Positions 30,791-43,367 of a DNA stretch of 43,533 nt are shown piece by piece. This DNA comes from Opitutus sp. (lineage in GTDB: Bacteria; Verrucomicrobiota; Verrucomicrobiia; Opitutales; Opitutaceae). The notes below the pieces were generated by a model. It was not told the DNA's origin and did not search any database. It saw nothing but the letters and a program-made list of their open reading frames with translations. The stretch lies in assembly GCA_013822585.1 (NCBI GenBank), contig PNKG01000003.1, forward strand, positions 1 to 43,533. Reading direction: 5' to 3'. Both the position numbers and the translations under genes were made by a program. Numbering within the stretch: the first letter of the stretch is position 1; each line of letters starts with the position of its first letter.

Positions 30791-30944
30791 CTCCCACGAC
30801 GATGCCAGCAGCCAAAGGCCCGAAGCGAAAGGCCGGAGCGGAAGGCGCGCCGGCCCGGACGCTCGTGAACACCACGCCGGCGGCATCCGCGGCGGGGCGC
30901 ACTCCGCGCTTCCGCTTTCAGGCGAAACGCGCATCGTGGCACGC

Positions 30945-31394
30945 ATGGCCAACGTCTACGACACCCTCCGCGCCGACATCGTCGCCGCGATGAAAGCCCG
31001 CGAAACCGCCCGCGCCACCGCGCTGCGCACCATGGACGCCGCGATCCAGCGCGCCGCGATGGACGCGAACAAGCCGATCGACGAGGCGCTCGCCCTCGCG
31101 ACGATCCGCAAGGCCGTGAAAAACCTTTCCGACGCCCGCGCCGAGTTCGCGAAGGGCGGCCGCGCCGACCTCGTGGCCGCCAACACCACCGAGATCGGCT
31201 TCCTCGGGAAATACCTCCCGCAGGCGCTCGACCCCGCCAGGCTCGAGGCGCTCATCACCGAGGCCATCGCCGCCACCGGCGCGACCTCGAAGAAGGAGAT
31301 GGGCAAGGTCATCGGCGCGCTCAAGCAGCGCCCCGAAGCCGCGCTGATCGACTTCGGCGCCGCCAGCCGGCTCGTGCAGGCCCGGCTGCCGTGA
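30945..31394 (+). CDS. YqeY/GatB-like domain protein
   Basis: TLRADIVAAMKARETARATALRTMDAAIQ...YLPQALDPARLEALITEAIAATGATSKKEMGKVIGALK. Confidence 0.9.
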   Translation: MANVYDTLRADIVAAMKARETARATALRTMDAAIQRAAMDANKPIDEALALATIRKAVKNLSDARAEFAKGGRADLVAANTTEIGFLGKYLPQALDPARLEALITEAIAATGATSKKEMGKVIGALKQRPEAALIDFGAASRLVQARLP

Positions 31395-31466: not shown

Positions 31467-31565
31467 ATGCGGAAGTTTTTTCTTGCCGCGTCCGGGCTGC
31501 GGGGGAAATTCTCCGCGCACGATCACCCGATGATCCCCAGCCATCACCATCACCACCTCCTCTAG
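31467..31565 (+). CDS. candidate histidine leader peptide (32 aa; internal ATG at 31530 gives MIPSHHHHHLL)
   Basis: MRKFFLAASGLRGKFSAHDHPMIPSHHHHHLL*; five consecutive His codons (31542-31556) 173 nt upstream of hisG start, followed by terminator hairpin. Confidence 0.75.
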   Translation: MRKFFLAASGLRGKFSAHDHPMIPSHHHHHLL

Positions 31566-31605
31566 CCTTCCCACCCGGGAAGGCAGGTGCCTTCTCGTGG
31601 TGATG
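31566..31605 (+). promoter_or_regulatory. attenuator hairpin region
   Basis: CCTTCCC-ACCC-GGGAAGG (31566-31583) overlaps GAAGGCA-GG-TGCCTTC (31579-31594); GTGGTGATG (31597-31605) is the exact complement of His codons CATCACCAC (31548-31556). Confidence 0.65.
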
Positions 31606-31618
31606 AATCCCTTTTCTG

Positions 31619-31654
31619 AACCCCGGTCGGCACCGTCCACCGGGGTTTCTCTTT
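31619..31654 (+). terminator. his attenuator terminator hairpin
   Basis: AACCCCGGT-N11-ACCGGGGTT-TCTCTTT, 9-bp stem with U-rich tail. Confidence 0.75.
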
Positions 31655-31698
31655 GGGCCCCGATGGAACCACCAGCCATCCCCTGCGCGAAAACCTCC

Positions 31699-31738
31699 CA
31701 GCCCTTCTGTCTTTCCTCCTTTCAGCCTTTTCTCCGCC
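31699..31738 (+). repeat. period-8 pyrimidine-rich array directly before hisG ATG
   Basis: CAGCCCTT|CTGTCTTT|CCTCCTTT|CAGCCTTT|TCTCCGCC|ATG. Confidence 0.55.
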
Positions 31739-32650
31739 ATGCCTCCCTCCGCCCCGCCCAAAGACCGCCTCCGCCTCGCCGTGCAGAAAAGCGGCCGCCT
31801 CGCGACCGACTCGCTCGACCTCCTCGCCCGCTGCGGCATCAAGGTCAAGACGCCCAAGGAGAAGCTCCTCCTCCACGCCGGCAATTTCCCGATCGACCTG
31901 CTCTTCGTGCGCGACGACGACATCCCGCAGCTCGTGATGGACGGCGTGTGCGACCTCGGCATCGTCGGCACCAACGTCCTCGAGGAGACCGCGCTCCAGC
32001 GGCGCACCGACGGCGACGGCGACGGCTACGAACTCGCGCGCACGCTCGAATTCGGCGGCTGCCGGCTCGCCATCGCCCTGCCCGAGGAACGCACCTACGC
32101 CGGCCCGGCCGACCTCGCGGGCCTGCGCATCGCCACCTCCTACCCGCAGCTCACGAAGCGCTTTCTCGCCGAAAAGGGAGTCGCCGCCGAGGTCGTGGTG
32201 TTGAGCGGCTCGGTCGAGATCGCGCCACGCCTCGGCCTCGCGGAGGCGATCTGCGACCTCGTCGCCACCGGCTCGACGCTCGAGGCCAACCAGCTCCGCG
32301 CGGTCGAGACCGTCTTCCGGAGCTCCGCCGTGCTCATCCGCGCCGCGCGCGAGCTCAACCCGGTCAAGGCCCATGCGCTCGAGCTGCTGCTCCGCCGCAT
32401 CGACGGCGTGCAACTGGCCGCCGAGGCCAAATACATCATGCTCCACGCCCCGAAGTCCGCCCTGCCGGAGATCCGGAAGCTCCTGCCGGGCGCCGAGAAC
32501 CCCACCCTCCTGCCGCTGGCCGGCGACGAGTCGCGCGTCGCGCTCCACGCCGTCTGCCAGGAGGCCGTGTTCTGGGAAACGATGGAGTCGCTCAAGCGCG
32601 CCGGCGCCAGCAGCATCCTTGTCCTCCCGATCGAAAAGATGATGCTGTGA
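31739..32650 (+). CDS. hisG: ATP phosphoribosyltransferase, long form
   Basis: [56 protein letters not shown]-terminal regulatory domain. Confidence 0.95.
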
Positions 32651-32689: not shown

Positions 32690-32775
32690 CCGGCCCGATC
32701 CTCCTCGCCCATGCCCCTCGTCTCCAGCCGCGATTGCCACCCCGTCGCCCGTCGCCGGGCAGAGGTCCGCGCATC

Positions 32776-34122
32776 ATGCCCACCGCACTCGACCAGCACC
32801 TCACGCTTCAGCCCTTCCCCGTGACTCCCCTCGTCTGGAAAAACCTCTCGCCCGCCCGCCGCGCCGCCGCCCTGCAGCGGCCCGCGCAAGCGGTGCGCCC
32901 CCAGGTCGCCGCCGCGGTCGCGCGCCTCGTCGCGCAGGTGCGCCGCGAGGGCGACGCCGCGCTCCGCCGCCTGACCGCGCGGTTCGACGGCGTCCGGCTC
33001 TCCGCGCTGCGCGTGAGCGAGGCCGAGTTCGCCGCCGCGGAGGCGGCGCTTTCGCCGGCCGACCGCGCCGCACTGCGCACGGCCTACCGCAACCTTCGGC
33101 GTTTCCACGCCGCCCAGCGCGCGGCTCCCGTGCGCCTCGAGACCACCCGGGGCGTCGTCTGCGCAAAGGTCTCGCGCCCCATCGGCCGCGTGGGCCTCTA
33201 CGTGCCGGGCGGCAGCGCGCCGCTGTTCTCGACCGCGCTGATGCTGGGCGTGCCGTCGCAACTGGCCGGCAACCCGGGGCGCGTGCTTTGCACACCGCCG
33301 GGCCCCGCCGGCCGCGTGAGCCCGTGGATCCTCTGCGCCGCACGGCTCTGCGGCATCGCCGACGTGTTCAAGGCCGGCGGCGCGCAGGCCATCGCCGCCT
33401 TGGCCTACGGCACCGCCACGATCCCGAAATGCGACAAGCTCTTCGGCCCCGGCAACGCCTTCGTCACCGAGGCCAAGCAGCTCGTCGCCCGCGACCCGGC
33501 CGGCGCGGCCATCGATCTGCCGGCCGGGCCCTCCGAGGTGATGGTCATCGCCGACCACACCGCCGATCCTGTCTTCGTCGCCGCGGACCTGCTCTCGCAG
33601 GCCGAGCACGGGCCGGATTCGCAGGTTGTGTTGGTGGCGTTGTCGGAAAAATTCGCCGCGCGGGTCTCCGCCGAGGTCGTGGCGCAACTCCGCCTCCTGC
33701 CACGCCGGGCCATCGCCGCCGCGGCCCTGCGGAAAAGCCGCGTCATCCTCGCCGCCTCGCGCGCCGAAGCGGCCGCGATTGCCAACCTCTATGCGCCCGA
33801 GCACCTGATCCTGCAGGTGGCAAACCCGCGCGCCCTCCTGCCGGAAATCACCGCCGCCGGCTCGGTGTTCGTCGGCGCGTGGACGCCCGAATCGCTCGGC
33901 GACTACGCGAGCGGCACCAACCACGTGCTGCCCACCTACGGCTGGGCGCGGGCCTACAGCGGTCTCGGCCTTTCCGACTTCCAGCGCTCCATGACCGTGC
34001 AGGAGGCGCGGCCACGCGGCCTGTGCCGCCTCGGCCCGGCCGTCGCCCGCCTCGCCGACGCCGAAGGCCTCGCCGCCCACCGCCGCGCCGTCACTGTCCG
34101 TCTGCAAAAACTCGCCCGATGA
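32776..34122 (+). CDS. hisD: histidinol dehydrogenase
   Basis: IGRVGLYVPGGSAPLFSTALMLGVPSQLAG, KLFGPGNAFVTEAKQLV, LPAGPSEVMVIAD, TNHVLPT. Confidence 0.95.
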   Translation: MPTALDQHLTLQPFPVTPLVWKNLSPARRAAALQRPAQAVRPQVAAAVARLVAQVRREGDAALRRLTARFDGVRLSALRVSEAEFAAAEAALSPADRAALRTAYRNLRRFHAAQRAAPVRLETTRGVVCAKVSRPIGRVGLYVPGGSAPLFSTALMLGVPSQLAGNPGRVLCTPPGPAGRVSPWILCAARLCGIADVFKAGGAQAIAALAYGTATIPKCDKLFGPGNAFVTEAKQLVARDPAGAAIDLPAGPSEVMVIADHTADPVFVAADLLSQAEHGPDSQVVLVALSEKFAARVSAEVVAQLRLLPRRAIAAAALRKSRVILAASRAEAAAIANLYAPEHLILQVANPRALLPEITAAGSVFVGAWTPESLGDYASGTNHVLPTYGWARAYSGLGLSDFQRSMTVQEARPRGLCRLGPAVARLADAEGLAAHRRAVTVRLQKLAR

Positions 34123-34240: not shown

Positions 34241-35305
34241 ATGAAACCCATCGACTCCGTTCTCGCCCTTGTCCGCCCCGAGATCCTCGCGCTCACGCCC
34301 TACTCGTCGGCGCGCAAGGAATCATCCGGCGGACGCGTCTGGCTTGATGCGAACGAAAATCCCCTCACGCCGCACGCCGGCGCGCCGCGTCTCAACCGCT
34401 ATCCCGACCCGCAGCCGCCCGAGCTCATCGCCCGGCTCGCCTCGCTCTACGGCGTCGTGCCCGATCGCGTGCTCGTCACGCGCGGCTCCGACGAGGGCAT
34501 CGACCTGCTCCTGCGCGCCTTCTGCCGCGCCGGCCAGGATTCCATCGTCATCACGCCGCCGACCTACGGCATGTATGCCGTCGCCGCCGGCATCCAGGGC
34601 GCCGCCGTCCGCAGCGCCCCGCTCGAGCGCGACCAGGACTTCGCCCTCGATGTCGGCGCCGTGCTCGCGGCGGTCGACGCGTCGGTGAAGCTCGTTTTCC
34701 TCTGCTCGCCCAACAATCCCACCGGCCAGCTTCTCGCCTGCGACTCCGTGCGGCACGTCGTCGACGCGCTGGCCGGACGCGCCATCGTGGTCATCGACGA
34801 GGCCTACGGCGAGTTCGCCAGCGAGCCGAGCTTTGCCGGTGAATTGGCGGAGCGGCCGAACCTCGTCGTGCTGCGCACGCTCTCCAAGGCCTTCGGCCTG
34901 GCCGGCGCGCGCGTGGGCGCGACGCTTGCCACCCCCGAGCTGATCGCCGTGCTGAAAAAGATCATCGCGCCCTACCCGATCCCCACGCCGGTGGCGAACG
35001 CCGCGCTCGAGGCCTTGGCGCCGCACGCCATCGCGGCGGCCCGCCGTTCCGCGCTCGGATTGGTCGAGCAACGCCGACGGCTCGCGGCCGGCTTGGCCGA
35101 ACTGCCCGCCGTGAGGCGCGTGTGGCCGAGCGACGCCAATTTCCTTCTCGTCGAAGTCACCGACTCCGCCCGCGTGATGTCCGTCGCCCGCGCCGCGGGC
35201 CTCATCCTCCGCGACCGCAGCAAGGACGTCCCCAACACCGTCCGCATCACCGTCGGCTCGCCCGAAGAAACCGCCTTCGCCTTGGAGACCCTCGCCCGTG
35301 CGTAG
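34241..35305 (+). CDS. hisC: histidinol-phosphate aminotransferase
   Basis: WLDANENPLTPH, LVTRGSDEGIDLLLRAF, CSPNNPTGQ, VVIDEAYGEF, RTLSKAFGLAGARVG. Confidence 0.95.
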   Translation: MKPIDSVLALVRPEILALTPYSSARKESSGGRVWLDANENPLTPHAGAPRLNRYPDPQPPELIARLASLYGVVPDRVLVTRGSDEGIDLLLRAFCRAGQDSIVITPPTYGMYAVAAGIQGAAVRSAPLERDQDFALDVGAVLAAVDASVKLVFLCSPNNPTGQLLACDSVRHVVDALAGRAIVVIDEAYGEFASEPSFAGELAERPNLVVLRTLSKAFGLAGARVGATLATPELIAVLKKIIAPYPIPTPVANAALEALAPHAIAAARRSALGLVEQRRRLAAGLAELPAVRRVWPSDANFLLVEVTDSARVMSVARAAGLILRDRSKDVPNTVRITVGSPEETAFALETLARA

Positions 35306-35374: not shown

Positions 35375-35445
35375 GGGGGGCGCAGTCTTGCTACGCCCTT
35401 CGCTCGCTCGCGGCACCATTGGGGCGCAGCAAGATTGCGCCCCCA
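35375..35445. repeat. inverted REP pair of the GGGCGCAGTCTTGCTGCGCCC family
   Basis: 35375-35398 and 35421-35445 imperfect reverse complements; same family as 14508-14580. Confidence 0.8.
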
Positions 35446-35455
35446 CCACGCTGGC

Positions 35456-36520
35456 ATGAAAAAACTCCTCTTCCTCGACCGCGACGGCACCCTGATCGAC
35501 GAACCCCCCGACCGGCAGGTCGACCGGCTCGACAAGTTCGCCCTCGAACCCGATGTCGTGCCGGCGTTGCGGCGCTTCGCCGAAGCCGGCTACACGTTCG
35601 TCCTGGTCACGAATCAGGACGGACTCGGCACACCCAGCTTCCGCGAAAGCGAATTCCGCCCGCTGCAGGACCTGCTGCTCCGCATCCTCGAGTCGCAGGG
35701 CATTCGCTTCGAGGCCGTCCGCATCTGCCCGCACACCGCCGCCGACCGCTGCGACTGCCGCAAGCCCAGGCCCGGCCTCGTGCTCGACTACCTGCGCGAC
35801 ACCGCGTGGGACCGCGGGGCCTCCGCCGTCATCGGCGACCGCGAAACCGACCTGCAACTCGCCGACGCGCTCGGCGTGCGCGGGCTGCGCTACGACCGCA
35901 AGGCCGGCGGCTGGTCCGCACTCGCGCGCCAGGTGCTCGACGCCCCGCGCAGAGCCACCGTCCGCCGCGAGACCAAGGAGACGAAGATCACCGTCTCGGT
36001 CGACCTCGACGCCCCGGGACCGGTGGCGCTCCGCACCGGCCTCGGCTTTTTCGACCACATGCTCGAACAGATCGCGCGCAACGCCGGCATCGCTCTCGAG
36101 ATCGCCTGCGAGGGCGACCTGCACATCGACGAGCACCACACCATCGAGGACACCGGCCTCGCCCTCGGCACCGCGCTGCGGCAGGCGCTCGGCGACAAAC
36201 GCGGCATCGGCCGCTACGGCTTCATCCTGCCGATGGACGAGGCCAAGGCCGAGGTTGCACTCGATCTCAGCGGGCGCGCCTGGTTGGTCTTCGACGCGCA
36301 ATTCCCGCGCGAGCGCGTCGGCGAGATGCCGACTGAAATGGTTTCGCACTTCTTCAAGTCGGTCAGCGACACCCTCGCCGCCACGCTCCACATGAAGGCC
36401 ACCGGCGACAACGCGCACCACATGGTCGAGGCGCTGTTCAAAGGCTTCGGCCGCGCCCTGCGCCCCGCCATCGCCCGCGGCACCGGCGGCGACATCCCCA
36501 GCTCGAAAGGCGTGTTATGA
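35456..36520 (+). CDS. hisB: bifunctional histidinol-phosphatase / imidazoleglycerol-phosphate dehydratase
   Basis: HAD motif LFLDRDGTLIDEPPD fused to IGPD domain GLGFFDHMLEQIARN...DEHHTIEDTG...HHMVEALFK. Confidence 0.95.
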   Translation: MKKLLFLDRDGTLIDEPPDRQVDRLDKFALEPDVVPALRRFAEAGYTFVLVTNQDGLGTPSFRESEFRPLQDLLLRILESQGIRFEAVRICPHTAADRCDCRKPRPGLVLDYLRDTAWDRGASAVIGDRETDLQLADALGVRGLRYDRKAGGWSALARQVLDAPRRATVRRETKETKITVSVDLDAPGPVALRTGLGFFDHMLEQIARNAGIALEIACEGDLHIDEHHTIEDTGLALGTALRQALGDKRGIGRYGFILPMDEAKAEVALDLSGRAWLVFDAQFPRERVGEMPTEMVSHFFKSVSDTLAATLHMKATGDNAHHMVEALFKGFGRALRPAIARGTGGDIPSSKGVL

Positions 36521-36564: not shown

Positions 36565-36690
36565 AAACGCCAACCCCCGGCCTCCACGCACCAAGGAAGC
36601 CCTGAATGCCAAACTCGTCCGTTGGCGTTTGGCTCTTGGTGTTTCTCTGGGTCTTGGATGTTGGAGAGTGGAGTTGTTCTCCGATTTTTC
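36565..36690. repeat. TTGG-rich dispersed-type repeat with interleaved inverted segments
   Basis: AAACGCCAAC (36565-36574)/GTTGGCGTTT (36621-36630) and CACCAAG (36589-36595)/CTTGGTG (36635-36641), then repeated TTGG every 6-15 nt. Confidence 0.55.
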
Positions 36691-36716
36691 CTCTCACCCT
36701 CTCTTTCACTCCCCTC

Positions 36717-37307
36717 ATGCTAGCCATCGTCGACAGCGGCGGCGCCAACATCGCCTCGGTGCGTTTCGCCCTCGAACGCCTCGGCGGGCGCGGCCAACTG
36801 ACGGCCGATCCGGCGGTCATCCGCGCGGCCGACCGCGTGATCCTGCCCGGCGTGGGCTCAGCCCCGGAAGGCATGAAGCGCCTGCACGCCAAGGGCCTGG
36901 TCGACTGCGTCCGCGCGCTCACCCAACCCGTGCTGGGCATCTGTCTCGGCATGCAGCTCCTCTTCGAGGCCTCCGCCGAAGGCGAAGTCCCGTCGCTCGG
37001 CCTGCTGCCCGGCCGCGTGGACCGCCTGCCGGAGTCTCCGGGCATCACGGTCCCGCACATGGGGTGGAACACGCTCGAAACCCTCCGCGCCACGCCCCTG
37101 CTCCGCGGCCTGCCGCCGGACGCCCGTTTCTACTTCGTGCACAGCTACGCCGCGCCGGTCACAGCGGACACCCTCGCCGCCGCGACCCACGGTGCCCGCT
37201 TTGCCGCCGTCGTGCAGCGCGGCAATATTTCCGGCGTGCAATTCCACCCCGAGCGCTCCGGCCCCGCCGGCGCGCAACTCCTCAAGAACTTCCTCACCCA
37301 CACCTGA
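36717..37307 (+). CDS. hisH: imidazole glycerol phosphate synthase subunit HisH
   Basis: MLAIVDSGGANIASVRFALERLG, GICLGMQLLF, PHMGWNTL, GVQFHPERSG. Confidence 0.95.
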   Translation: MLAIVDSGGANIASVRFALERLGGRGQLTADPAVIRAADRVILPGVGSAPEGMKRLHAKGLVDCVRALTQPVLGICLGMQLLFEASAEGEVPSLGLLPGRVDRLPESPGITVPHMGWNTLETLRATPLLRGLPPDARFYFVHSYAAPVTADTLAAATHGARFAAVVQRGNISGVQFHPERSGPAGAQLLKNFLTHT

Positions 37308-37318
37308 CGGCGGAACCC

Positions 37319-37341
37319 TTCATGCCGTAATACGGCATGAA
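37319..37341. promoter_or_regulatory. perfect odd palindrome, 11-bp arms and 1-nt centre
   Basis: TTCATGCCGTA-A-TACGGCATGAA in the hisH-hisA spacer. Confidence 0.7.
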
Positions 37342-37370
37342 CGCCGGGACCACTTCCCCCTGCCAGTTCA

Positions 37371-38113
37371 TGATCGTCTATCCCGCCATCGACCTGCGCC
37401 GCGGGCGCGTCGTGCGCCTGACCGAAGGCCGCTTCGAGGCCGAGACCGCCTACCACGACGACCCCGTCGCCGTCGCGCGCGGGTTCAAGGCCGCCGGCGC
37501 CGCCTGGCTGCACCTCGTCGATCTCGACGGGGCCAAAGATCCCACCCAGCGGCAGACGCGGCTCGTGGCCGAGATCGTCCGGGCCGCTGGCCTGCGCGTG
37601 CAATCCGGCGGCGGCGTCCGCGAGGAGGCGCACGTCCGTGCACTGCTCGACGCCGGCGTCGAGCGCGTGATCGTCGGCAGCCTCGCCGTGAAACAGCCGG
37701 CCCTCGTCGGCGCCTGGCTGGAGTCGTTCGGCCCGGAGAAGATCGTGCTCGCGCTGGATGTGCGCCTCGCCGCCGGCGTGCCGCTGATCGCCGTCGCCGG
37801 CTGGCAGGCCGACAGCGGCGTCACGCTCGACGCCACGCTCCGCACCTTCCTGCCGCGCGGGTTGCGCCACATTCTCTGCACCGATATCTCGCGCGACGGC
37901 AAGCTCACCGGCCCGAACTTCGCGCTTTACGCCGCGCTCCGGCGCGATTTTCCAACGCTCGCGGTGCAGGCGTCCGGCGGCGTGTCCTCGCTCGCCGACC
38001 TCCGCCGCCTCCAGGCGGAGGGCGCGCCCGGCGCCATCGTCGGCCGCGCGCTCTACGAAAACAGGTTCACCCTCAAGGAGGCATTGGCCGTCCCATCTTT
38101 CTCTGAATCGTGA
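37371..38113 (+). CDS. hisA: phosphoribosylformimino-5-aminoimidazole carboxamide ribotide isomerase
   Basis: [69 protein letters not shown]. Confidence 0.95.
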
Positions 38114-38252: not shown

Positions 38253-39020
38253 ATGCTAGCCCGCCGCATCATCCCCTGCCTCGACGTCCGCGCCGGCCGC
38301 GTCGTCAAGGGCGTGCAGTTCCGCCAGCACGAGGACGTGGGCGACATCCTCGAACTGGCCCGGCGCTACCGCGACGCGGGCGCGGACGAGATCGTCTTCT
38401 ACGACATCACCGCGAGCAGCGACGGACGGACCGTGTCGGCCGACTGGGTGGAGAGCGTCGCGCGCGTGCTCGACGTGCCGTTCTGCGTCGCGGGCGGCAT
38501 CCGTTCCCTGGATGATGCGCGCCGCCTCCTGCACAGCGGCGCCGACAAGGTCTCGCTCAACTCCCCCGCGCTCGAAAACCCCGCGCTCGTCACCCGCCTC
38601 GCCGCCGAGTTCGGTTCGCAGGCCGTCGTCGTGGGCATCGATTCGCGGGCGGAGCACGGCGACTACTTCGTGAAGCAATACACCGGCGATCCGGACAAGA
38701 CCCGCGCCACGCGCTGGCGCACGGTCGACTGGGCCCGGGAGGCGCAGCGCCTCGGCGCGGGCGAGGTCGTGCTCAACTGCATGAATCAGGACGGCGTGCG
38801 CGGCGGCTACGATCTCGCGCAGCTCAAGCTCGTGCGCGCCGCGCTCACCATCCCGCTCGTCGCCTCGGGCGGCGCGGGCGCGCCGGAGCACTTCCGCGAT
38901 GTGTTCCGCGCCGCCGGCGTCGACGGCGCGCTCGCCGCGTCGGTTTTCCACAAAGGCACGATCCGCATTCCCGACCTGAAATCCTACCTCGCCCGCGAGG
39001 GCGTGTGCGTCCGCACCTGA
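38253..39020 (+). CDS. hisF: imidazole glycerol phosphate synthase subunit HisF
   Basis: [77 protein letters not shown]. Confidence 0.95.
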
Positions 39021-39031
39021 ACCCAGACCTC

Positions 39032-39124
39032 AACCACAAATGAACACCGATGGACACAGATCGAGGACGCGGCTTCGTTCGCTTTCTCCGTTCATCTGAG
39101 CGCATCTGTGTCCATCTGTGGTTT
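39032..39124. repeat. inverted pair of ACCACNNATGNACACNGATG dispersed-type repeat
   Basis: AACCACAAATGAACACCGATGGACACAGAT (39032-39061) versus reverse complement of 39091-39124. Confidence 0.65.
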
Positions 39125-39134
39125 CTCCCCTCCG

Positions 39135-39749
39135 ATGAATTCTCTTCCGACTCTCGACTGGCAAAAGGGCGGCGGCCTCCTTCCCGCCATCGTCCAGGAT
39201 GCCGACACCCAACAGGTGCTGATGCTCGGCTACATGAACGCCGCGGCGCTCGAGCAGACGCTCGCGACGAAGCGCGTGACGTTCTTCTCGCGCGCGAAGA
39301 GCCGCCCGTGGGTGAAAGGCGAGACGTCCGGGCACTACCTCGATCTCGTCAATGTGGAGGCCGACTGCGACGCGGACGCCCTGCTCGTGCGGGCGCGACC
39401 GAACGGCCCGACGTGCCATCGGGGCACCTGCAGCTGCTTCGGCGAGGGCGGCGCGAGCGGCGTCGGCTTCCTCGCCGAACTCGAGCGCCTCGTGACGCAG
39501 CGCATCGCCTCCGGCGACGAAAAGAGCTACACGGCCAAGCTCGTCCGCGAGGGCGTGAGGCGCGTGGCGCAGAAGGTCGGCGAGGAGGGCGTGGAAACGG
39601 CGCTCGCCGCCACCGCGGGCGACCACGCTGAACTCGCCGGCGAAGCGGCCGACCTGCTCTACCACCTCATCGTGCTGCTGCGCGCCAAGGGCCTCACGCT
39701 CGGCGACGCGCTCGCGGTCTTGGAAAAACGCCACGCGGCGAAGAAATAG
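39135..39749 (+). CDS. hisIE: bifunctional phosphoribosyl-AMP cyclohydrolase / phosphoribosyl-ATP pyrophosphatase
   Basis: DTQQVLMLGYMNAAAL, FFSRAKSRPWVKGETSG, CHRGTCSCF, EEGVETALAATAGD. Confidence 0.95.
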   Translation: MNSLPTLDWQKGGGLLPAIVQDADTQQVLMLGYMNAAALEQTLATKRVTFFSRAKSRPWVKGETSGHYLDLVNVEADCDADALLVRARPNGPTCHRGTCSCFGEGGASGVGFLAELERLVTQRIASGDEKSYTAKLVREGVRRVAQKVGEEGVETALAATAGDHAELAGEAADLLYHLIVLLRAKGLTLGDALAVLEKRHAAKK

Positions 39750-41754: not shown

Positions 41755-42759
41755 GTGCCGGGTAGCCAGCTCATCGTGGTGGCAAACAAACCCATTACCA
41801 TTGCGAGCCGCTTCTCGCCCGATGAACAGGCCGTGTTGCACCAAGGAGATTGTCTCGATCTGCTGCGCCATATTCCTGATCGAAGCGTGCGCCTGGTGGT
41901 CACCTCCCCGCCTTACAATCTCGGGAAGGCATACGAGCGCCGCCAGACAATCGCCGACTACCTTGCCTTTCAAACCCGGGTGATCGAAGAATCTGTTCGG
42001 ACGCTTGTCGACGGAGGCAGCCTCTGCTGGCAGGTGGGCAATCACGTCCAAAAATCCACCTCAAGCTCGATTCTCCCGCTCGACATTCTCCTGTATCCGG
42101 CGTTTGCGAACCTGGGCTTGCGACTGAGGAACCGCGTGATCTGGCATTTCGAGCACGGGCTTCATTGCACCAACCGGTTGTCCGGACGCTACGAAACTGT
42201 GCTTTGGTTCACCAAGGGTGAGGCTTACTACTTCGACGTGGATCCGATCCGTGTCCCGCAAAAATACCCGGGCAAGAAATATTTCAAGGGGCCGCGCGCC
42301 GGCCAATATTCCTGCAACCCGCTCGGCAAGAACCCGGGCGATGTGTGGATCATCCCCAACGTCAAGAGCAACCACGTCGAGAAGACAGGCCACCCCTGCC
42401 AATTTCCCGTCGAATTGATCGAACGGCTCGTCTTGTCTCTCACCGCCCCCGGCGAATGGGTTCTCGACCCCTTCGTGGGCGTGGGCACCTCCATCGTGGC
42501 CGCCGTCCGCCACCAGCGCCGCGGCGCCGGAGCGGAGAAAGACGCCCGCTACGCCGCCATTGCACGCCAACGGATCGATCTGGCGCTGCGCGGCGAATTG
42601 AAGACCCGCCCGATGCAGAAGCCGGTTTTCAACCCAAAAGACGCCGGTCTCAATCTCACCACCGCCCCATGGGGCGGCTCCACGGGCACCTACGCCGAAC
42701 CCACCGTTCGCCAGCTCAAGTTCTTCGAGCCGAAGTCCGAACGCACCCGCGTCAAATGA
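41755..42759 (+). CDS. site-specific DNA methyltransferase (N4/N6 class, type II R-M)
   Basis: TSPPYNLG catalytic motif, VLDPFVGVGTSIVAAV AdoMet motif; overlaps downstream endonuclease by ATGA. Confidence 0.92.
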   Translation: MPGSQLIVVANKPITIASRFSPDEQAVLHQGDCLDLLRHIPDRSVRLVVTSPPYNLGKAYERRQTIADYLAFQTRVIEESVRTLVDGGSLCWQVGNHVQKSTSSSILPLDILLYPAFANLGLRLRNRVIWHFEHGLHCTNRLSGRYETVLWFTKGEAYYFDVDPIRVPQKYPGKKYFKGPRAGQYSCNPLGKNPGDVWIIPNVKSNHVEKTGHPCQFPVELIERLVLSLTAPGEWVLDPFVGVGTSIVAAVRHQRRGAGAEKDARYAAIARQRIDLALRGELKTRPMQKPVFNPKDAGLNLTTAPWGGSTGTYAEPTVRQLKFFEPKSERTRVK

Positions 42760-43367
42760 AGATTGCCCAGGTTTATTCGCACCTCAACGGACTCGAGTAT
42801 CTTCTGGTGCACCGCAAGCCGCTCTGGACCGAAATTCAGCGCGTCATCCATGCCGTGGACGCCAACGCCTGCAAGACCAAGATCAGCCAAGAGAAGACCA
42901 TGCGTGGCCGCCGGTTGTTCAGTCCCAGGGCGATGAACGCCGGATTTGAGTCCCTGCTGCGCGATCTGGGCTGGCGAGAGAGCCGCGTTGCCTACTGGGT
43001 CACGAAAGACGAGAAACTCATCCGCCGAATTGTCGCCAAGTCGGCCGCCGACCAGAAAGCGGAAATCGAATCCGCCGGGCTTGAGCCGATTTACAGCTAC
43101 AACCAGACCGACTTTGTGAAGGACCGTGTCGCCCTCGAAGTGCAATTCGGGAAATATTCCTTCGTGGCCTACGATCTCTTCGTCAAACATCTCGCATTCT
43201 ACGTTGGTGATCAGATCGATGTCGGTGTGGAAATCCTCCCGATGAAACGCCTGCAGTGCGAGATGTCCTCCGGCCCCGCCTATTTTGAAGGCGAGTTGTT
43301 CAATGTCATCCGCAACGGTCGCGGTGTGCCCGCCGTTCCGCTCGTGGTCATCGGCGTGGAGCCTTAG
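42756..43367 (+). CDS. BglII/BstYI-family type II restriction endonuclease
   Basis: KIAQVYSHLNGLEYLLVH...YNQTDFVKDRVALEVQFGKYSFVAYDLFVKHLAFYVGDQIDVGVEILPMK resembles BstYI as I remember it; D-x(n)-EVQF catalytic pattern. Confidence 0.85.
   Translation: MKIAQVYSHLNGLEYLLVHRKPLWTEIQRVIHAVDANACKTKISQEKTMRGRRLFSPRAMNAGFESLLRDLGWRESRVAYWVTKDEKLIRRIVAKSAADQKAEIESAGLEPIYSYNQTDFVKDRVALEVQFGKYSFVAYDLFVKHLAFYVGDQIDVGVEILPMKRLQCEMSSGPAYFEGELFNVIRNGRGVPAVPLVVIGVEP

Follow-up and report, generated by a model that had tools for sequence, protein, structure and literature searches.

Leader-peptide attenuators of amino acid operons are on record for Proteobacteria, Actinobacteria and Firmicutes (PMC2965389, PMC9413887), those for histidine having been described as proteobacterial with cases from Firmicutes added (PMC9413887, PMC2965389), and in E. 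coli the AB, CD, EF and DE structures have been described (PMC10989985). In the open-access literature, which was not searched exhaustively, we found no report of a his attenuator in Verrucomicrobiota. The locus described here lies upstream of hisG in a stretch of 43,533 nucleotides from Opitutus sp., the whole of which is referred to below as the window, and had been predicted from its letters alone to encode a histidine leader peptide and an attenuator. This reading is upheld, a terminator, an antiterminator and an alternative hairpin being predicted in all 28 distinct leaders that were compared. We regard the element with considerable confidence as a ribosome-mediated attenuator of his transcription that resembles E. 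coli hisL and probably descends, with divergence, from a gammaproteobacterial one acquired together with the operon. Its features are collected in Table 1.

Table 1. Features of the putative his attenuator and of the his operon in the window (alternative pairings are predicted).
Feature	Position	Strand	Remarks
-35 element TTGCCG	31483..31488	+	all 28 leaders share CTTGC; immediately preceded by an A-rich stretch
-10 region AAATTC	31506..31511	+	spacer to the -35 hexamer exactly 17 nt
Leader peptide ORF, MIPSHHHHHLL, stop TAG	31530..31565	+	conserved start codon; 11 residues
Segment A, five His codons	31542..31556	+	31548-31556 complementary to 31597-31605
Segment 1 (B) GCCTTCCC	31565..31572	+	shares last base of stop codon
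Segment 2 (C) GGGAAGGC	31577..31584	+	8 bp with segment 1, or (as 31579-31585) with segment 3
Segment 3 (D) GGTGCCTTC	31586..31594	+	31588-31594 with segment 2; 31586-31591 with 31629-31634
Segment 4 GTGGTGATG	31597..31605	+	partners: His codons (ribosome absent) or, via 31599-31601, terminator left arm 31620-31622
Terminator left arm (E) AACCCCGGT	31619..31627	+	31620-31622 and 31624-31626 taken up in antiterminator
GGCACC, terminator loop	31629..31634	+	antiterminator core, 3' half
Terminator right arm (F) ACCGGGGTT and interrupted T tract TTTCTCTTT	31639..31654	+	
hisG, long-form ATP phosphoribosyltransferase, gammaproteobacterial type	31739..32650	+	
hisD	32734..34122	+	TIGR00069; true start may be further in
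hisC	34241..35305	+	TIGR01141
hisB, bifunctional HisNB	35435..36520	+	NF003937, TIGR01261 above cut-off
hisH	36606..37307	+	domain begins at about residue 40 of ORF
hisA	37337..38113	+	
hisF, by position	38253..39020	+	His_biosynth domain PF00977
hisIE (PRA-CH and PRA-PH), operon end	39108..39749	+	sole PRA-CH match in assembly

The five histidine codons on which the original prediction was built (CATCACCATCACCAC, 31542-31556) are present, and neither strand of the 43.5-kb window has any other run of at least five such codons. The frame to which they had been assigned, of 32 codons and starting at 31467, is not borne out: its ATG precedes the -35 element of a conserved promoter (TTGCCG, 31483-31488), so this frame is unlikely to be translated from the leader transcript, and it was dropped in favour of the conserved start at 31530, which is ATG in the window and GTG in one relative (L031). 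Peptides of 9-11 residues with 3 to 6 histidine codons are encoded in all 28 distinct leaders. In relatives the promoter combines the invariant CTTGC with an AT-rich hexamer exactly 17 nt further on, CATCAA-like or CTTTTT-like in most of them, the AAATTC of the window being a poor match to a -10 element. The distance from the -10 hexamer to the leader start codon is 11-18 nt across relatives, and in the 18 nt that separate the two in the window no Shine-Dalgarno-like sequence was found. Directly upstream of the leader lies a gene for a YqeY-like protein (PF09424, window 30936-31394); a similar coding end occupies this position in some relatives (L032, L033 and L038) and is absent in others.

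Downstream of the peptide, segment 4 was confirmed as the complement of the histidine codons 31548-31556, and so was the proposal of mutually exclusive hairpins, now delimited as 31565-31572/31577-31584 and 31579-31585/31588-31594, which share bases. The 9-bp terminator with its T-rich tail also stands (31619-31627/31639-31647), about 85 nt before the hisG ATG. Since the window has an interrupted T tract, the hairpins might act on something other than intrinsic termination, control being translational or Rho-dependent; we consider this very improbable, as the terminator stem is kept in 28/28 leaders at this distance from hisG and is followed in many relatives by longer T tracts. An intrinsic terminator separating the leader ORF from the first his gene is thus predicted by sequence in every case. 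The CCGGG of the first hairpin loop was considered as an antiterminator and dropped, its sequence not being conserved.

Conservation was assessed with a covariance model of the leader (R1) searched against 200 genomes of the family, 20 of which scored 99-132 bits, the next best match reaching 33.8; all 20 belong to the three genera that carry this operon. Pooled with loci gathered earlier, these strong matches make up the 28 distinct Opitutaceae leaders, which occur only in genera with the gammaproteobacterial-type his operon. When the region upstream of hisG was compared across relatives, a check that had been suggested together with the prediction, a short histidine-rich ORF upstream of a his gene, common hairpins and the terminator were found in all 28. 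CAY repeats are simple sequence, and a histidine run could in principle have arisen by chance beside unrelated hairpins, yet a coincidence of this kind is as good as refuted by conservation in 28 leaders and by scores of 99-132 bits against a background of 33.8 bits. Weak R1 matches (L131-L135) were rejected as leaders, as were weak matches to Rfam model RF00514 that lacked a poly-His ORF.

The original prediction had reported no convincing antiterminator able to capture the left arm of the terminator (31620-31626), and in this respect it has to be revised, since one was found by masked folding. In the predicted structure a core of GGUGCC (31586-31591) pairs with GGCACC in the terminator loop (31629-31634), and within this helix C31594 together with CG at 31596-31597 pairs with CGG at 31624-31626, and GGU at 31599-31601 with ACC at 31620-31622, both in the left arm. 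Folding was performed stepwise, with the RNA made up to the terminator loop and the bases covered by the ribosome masked, on the assumption that the ribosome extends about 13 nt 3' of the A-site codon; the outcome depends on the order of folding. With the ribosome placed at the histidine codons, capture of the left arm was the minimum-energy fold of the RNA up to the terminator loop in 28/28 leaders, 5-7 of the 8 left-arm bases being captured, a range whose lower end of 5 is reached by 44% of shuffled leaders. Moving the ribosome to the stop codon gave, in 28/28, a predicted hairpin 2:3 that forms ahead of terminator synthesis, and without a ribosome pairing of the histidine codons with segment 4 was predicted in 26/28. 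The antiterminator is therefore predicted to be favoured by a ribosome at the histidine codons and pre-empted by the other hairpin when the ribosome is at the stop.

At equilibrium and at full length, with the ribosome at the histidine codons, the terminator is predicted to be more stable than the antiterminator in 26/28 leaders, so the antiterminator would need kinetic trapping, as it would in E. coli. In the no-ribosome state, at equilibrium and with the terminator loop out, the antiterminator wins again in most sequences, which makes shut-off in the absence of translation the least certain step. The antiterminator arms themselves show strong conserved complementarity: pairs 1-3 of the core are intact in 28/28 leaders, at pair 4, 14 leaders have U-A and 7 have C-G, and pair 6 is U-G, G-C, C-G or A-U in 12/16 members of clade I. 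Pairing between arms of the same leader is on average 1.9 kcal/mol stronger than between swapped arms, none of 20000 permutations being as good; within clades this advantage is weak (p = 0.04 and 0.16), and independent covariation is consequently modest.

Taken together, these pairings suggest how the leader may work. When histidine is short, a ribosome stalled on the histidine codons would mask them and leave segment 1 free to pair with segment 2, so that segments 3 and 4 would be available to the left arm and loop of the terminator as these emerge; with the antiterminator formed, RNA polymerase would proceed into hisG. When histidine is plentiful, the ribosome would reach the TAG and mask segment 1, allowing segments 2 and 3 to pair and the terminator to form, and transcription would end about 85 nt before hisG. 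If no ribosome is present, the histidine codons would pair with segment 4, which would also block the antiterminator.

The word "verrucomicrobial" in the original prediction is right for the host, a member of Opitutaceae, but not for the operon, which belongs to the gammaproteobacterial type as judged from its order hisG-D-C-B-H-A-F-IE (hisGDCBHAFI), which is that of E. coli, from the fused HisNB and HisIE and from the position of its HisG within the proteobacterial long-form clade; this would explain the unusual presence of the attenuator in this phylum. Two classes of HisG relatives exist within the family, one at 73-88% identity and the other comprising ordinary HisG at about 30%, and every locus of the former class whose upstream region is covered has the leader. 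The N-terminal domain of HisB, which is also present in Bacteroides, was found in 11/57 relatives, all of them in genomes with the 73-88% class. Leader and gammaproteobacterial-type HisG and HisNB thus co-occur within the family, neither having been found in its other members, and since no carrier genome has more than one HisG, the ordinary one was apparently replaced. Among HisG of known structure, 1h3d, that of E. coli, is closest in sequence. In a maximum-likelihood tree of HisG, built without Bacteroidota, the Opitutaceae carriers make up a single clade (100/99) nested among proteobacterial sequences and well away from the ordinary verrucomicrobial HisG, and their sister group consists of gammaproteobacteria (support 90/80 only), many of which have histidine leaders. 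Downstream of the operon (window 41755-43367) a DNA N6/N4 methylase (PF01555) is followed by a protein that contains a BglII restriction endonuclease domain (PF09195), an apparent restriction-modification pair.

Comparison with the Rfam His leader model gave a divided answer: the alignment is full-length, but the scores, from 28.8 to 45.7 bits, stay below the gathering threshold of RF00514 (49 bits), and a scan of Rfam at gathering cut-offs returned no match above threshold. In a permissive scan RF00514 aligned to 31541-31654 of the window over the whole model (positions 1-126) with 28.8 bits (E 0.0078), the best score among the relatives scanned being that of L047 (45.7 bits, E 4.5e-4), the earliest branch in HisG. 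Other members of the phylum also gave weak RF00514 matches (G412, at 46.8 bits, among them), which were dismissed as noise because none of the loci examined has a poly-His ORF.

A second histidine leader was observed outside Opitutaceae but within its class, in genus g77 of family f23, where most members (L161-L165, L201-L227) have a HisG of another transferred type, sharing about 50% identity with that of the window, with no His-rich leader, and others keep an ordinary HisG at 29%, so that this is apparently a second replacement of his genes in the phylum. In three g77 genomes (G269, G496 and G799) leaders lie upstream of hisG (L166, reverse complement, from 1333; L167; and L228, reverse complement, from 1445), with the sequences MIWQVTIHHLHHHHVR, which follows TTGACA-N17-TATAAT, and MTLHHHSLHHHTSRR. 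These leaders have consensus-like promoters and a predicted antiterminator in which the nucleotides immediately following the stop codon pair with the left arm and loop of the terminator; this helix, of 14 bp in L166, is predicted to be stable there even at equilibrium, and the plan is two-state and trp-like. Attenuators of the trp type are two-state, the position of the ribosome selecting either the antiterminator or the terminator; the leader of the window shares this selector and differs by its extra 2:3 step, and the g77 leaders appear closer to the trp-type plan than it does.

The existence of this differently built attenuator in another verrucomicrobial family, the proposal that Firmicutes lineages acquired or evolved theirs separately (PMC9413887, PMC2965389) and the RF00514 score below cut-off all lend something to the view that Opitutaceae, having acquired the operon, evolved a genuine attenuator of their own, converging on the hisL plan. 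We nevertheless consider such an origin unlikely, because RF00514 aligns over its full length and scores highest, among the leaders scanned, in the earliest branch, because the order of elements (TAG, C/T-rich B, G/A-rich C, CTTCC, GTGGTG, ATGAA) agrees with that in E. coli at every segment, and because the sister group of HisG includes many leader-bearing gammaproteobacteria. The simplest and most likely reading is that operon and leader were transferred together and later diverged, the direction, from Gammaproteobacteria, being the one these relationships suggest. The fuller scenario, that a complete his operon with its RNA attenuator moved from Gammaproteobacteria to Opitutaceae and stayed functional with a nearly leaderless ORF devoid of a Shine-Dalgarno sequence, while a second verrucomicrobial family built its own histidine attenuator independently, we favour only slightly over its negation.

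A classic device of his control is thereby extended to a phylum for which the open-access literature shows no report of one. If functional, it would imply coupling of transcription and translation in Verrucomicrobiota, as well as the survival of a ribosome-sensing RNA through transfer between phyla, with the sequence drifting and the logic kept; the 28 leaders provide a natural set of variants for testing which pairings matter.

Among described systems, the leaders of the his operon and of hisS/hisZ in Firmicutes (PMC9413887, PMC2965389) resemble that of the window in having a short ORF, a run of histidine codons and a terminator/antiterminator pair, and differ in belonging to another phylum and in being reported as novel structures without RF00514 matches (PMC9413887). 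From hisL the Opitutaceae leader, apart from its phylum and its scores below the Rfam cut-off, differs in three respects: it has no A:B hairpin at the stop codon, where the RF00514 alignment contains many non-pairs and the E. coli alignment lacks the segment; its peptide of 11 residues starts 11-18 nt past the -10; and its predicted antiterminator draws on the terminator loop (GGCAC) as well as the left arm. In E. coli hisL (L234:2217-2295) the first two histidine codons, CACCAC, can pair with GUGGUG just past segment D, a pairing seen besides A:B in the predicted no-ribosome fold, and this long-range pairing is retained in the Opitutaceae leader. Identical folding steps gave for E. coli hisL the same switch, CACCAC:GUGGUG included, with the terminator winning at equilibrium, and left-arm capture with the ribosome at the histidine codons was likewise predicted for three other gammaproteobacterial leaders. 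With the exception of A:B, the counterparts of hisL are all present (B:C, C:D, D:E, E:F and His codons:GUGGUG), and the likeness to E. coli and Salmonella extends to a histidine-codon peptide ending in TAG at segment B, a terminator before hisG, the order of the his genes and the HisNB fusion.
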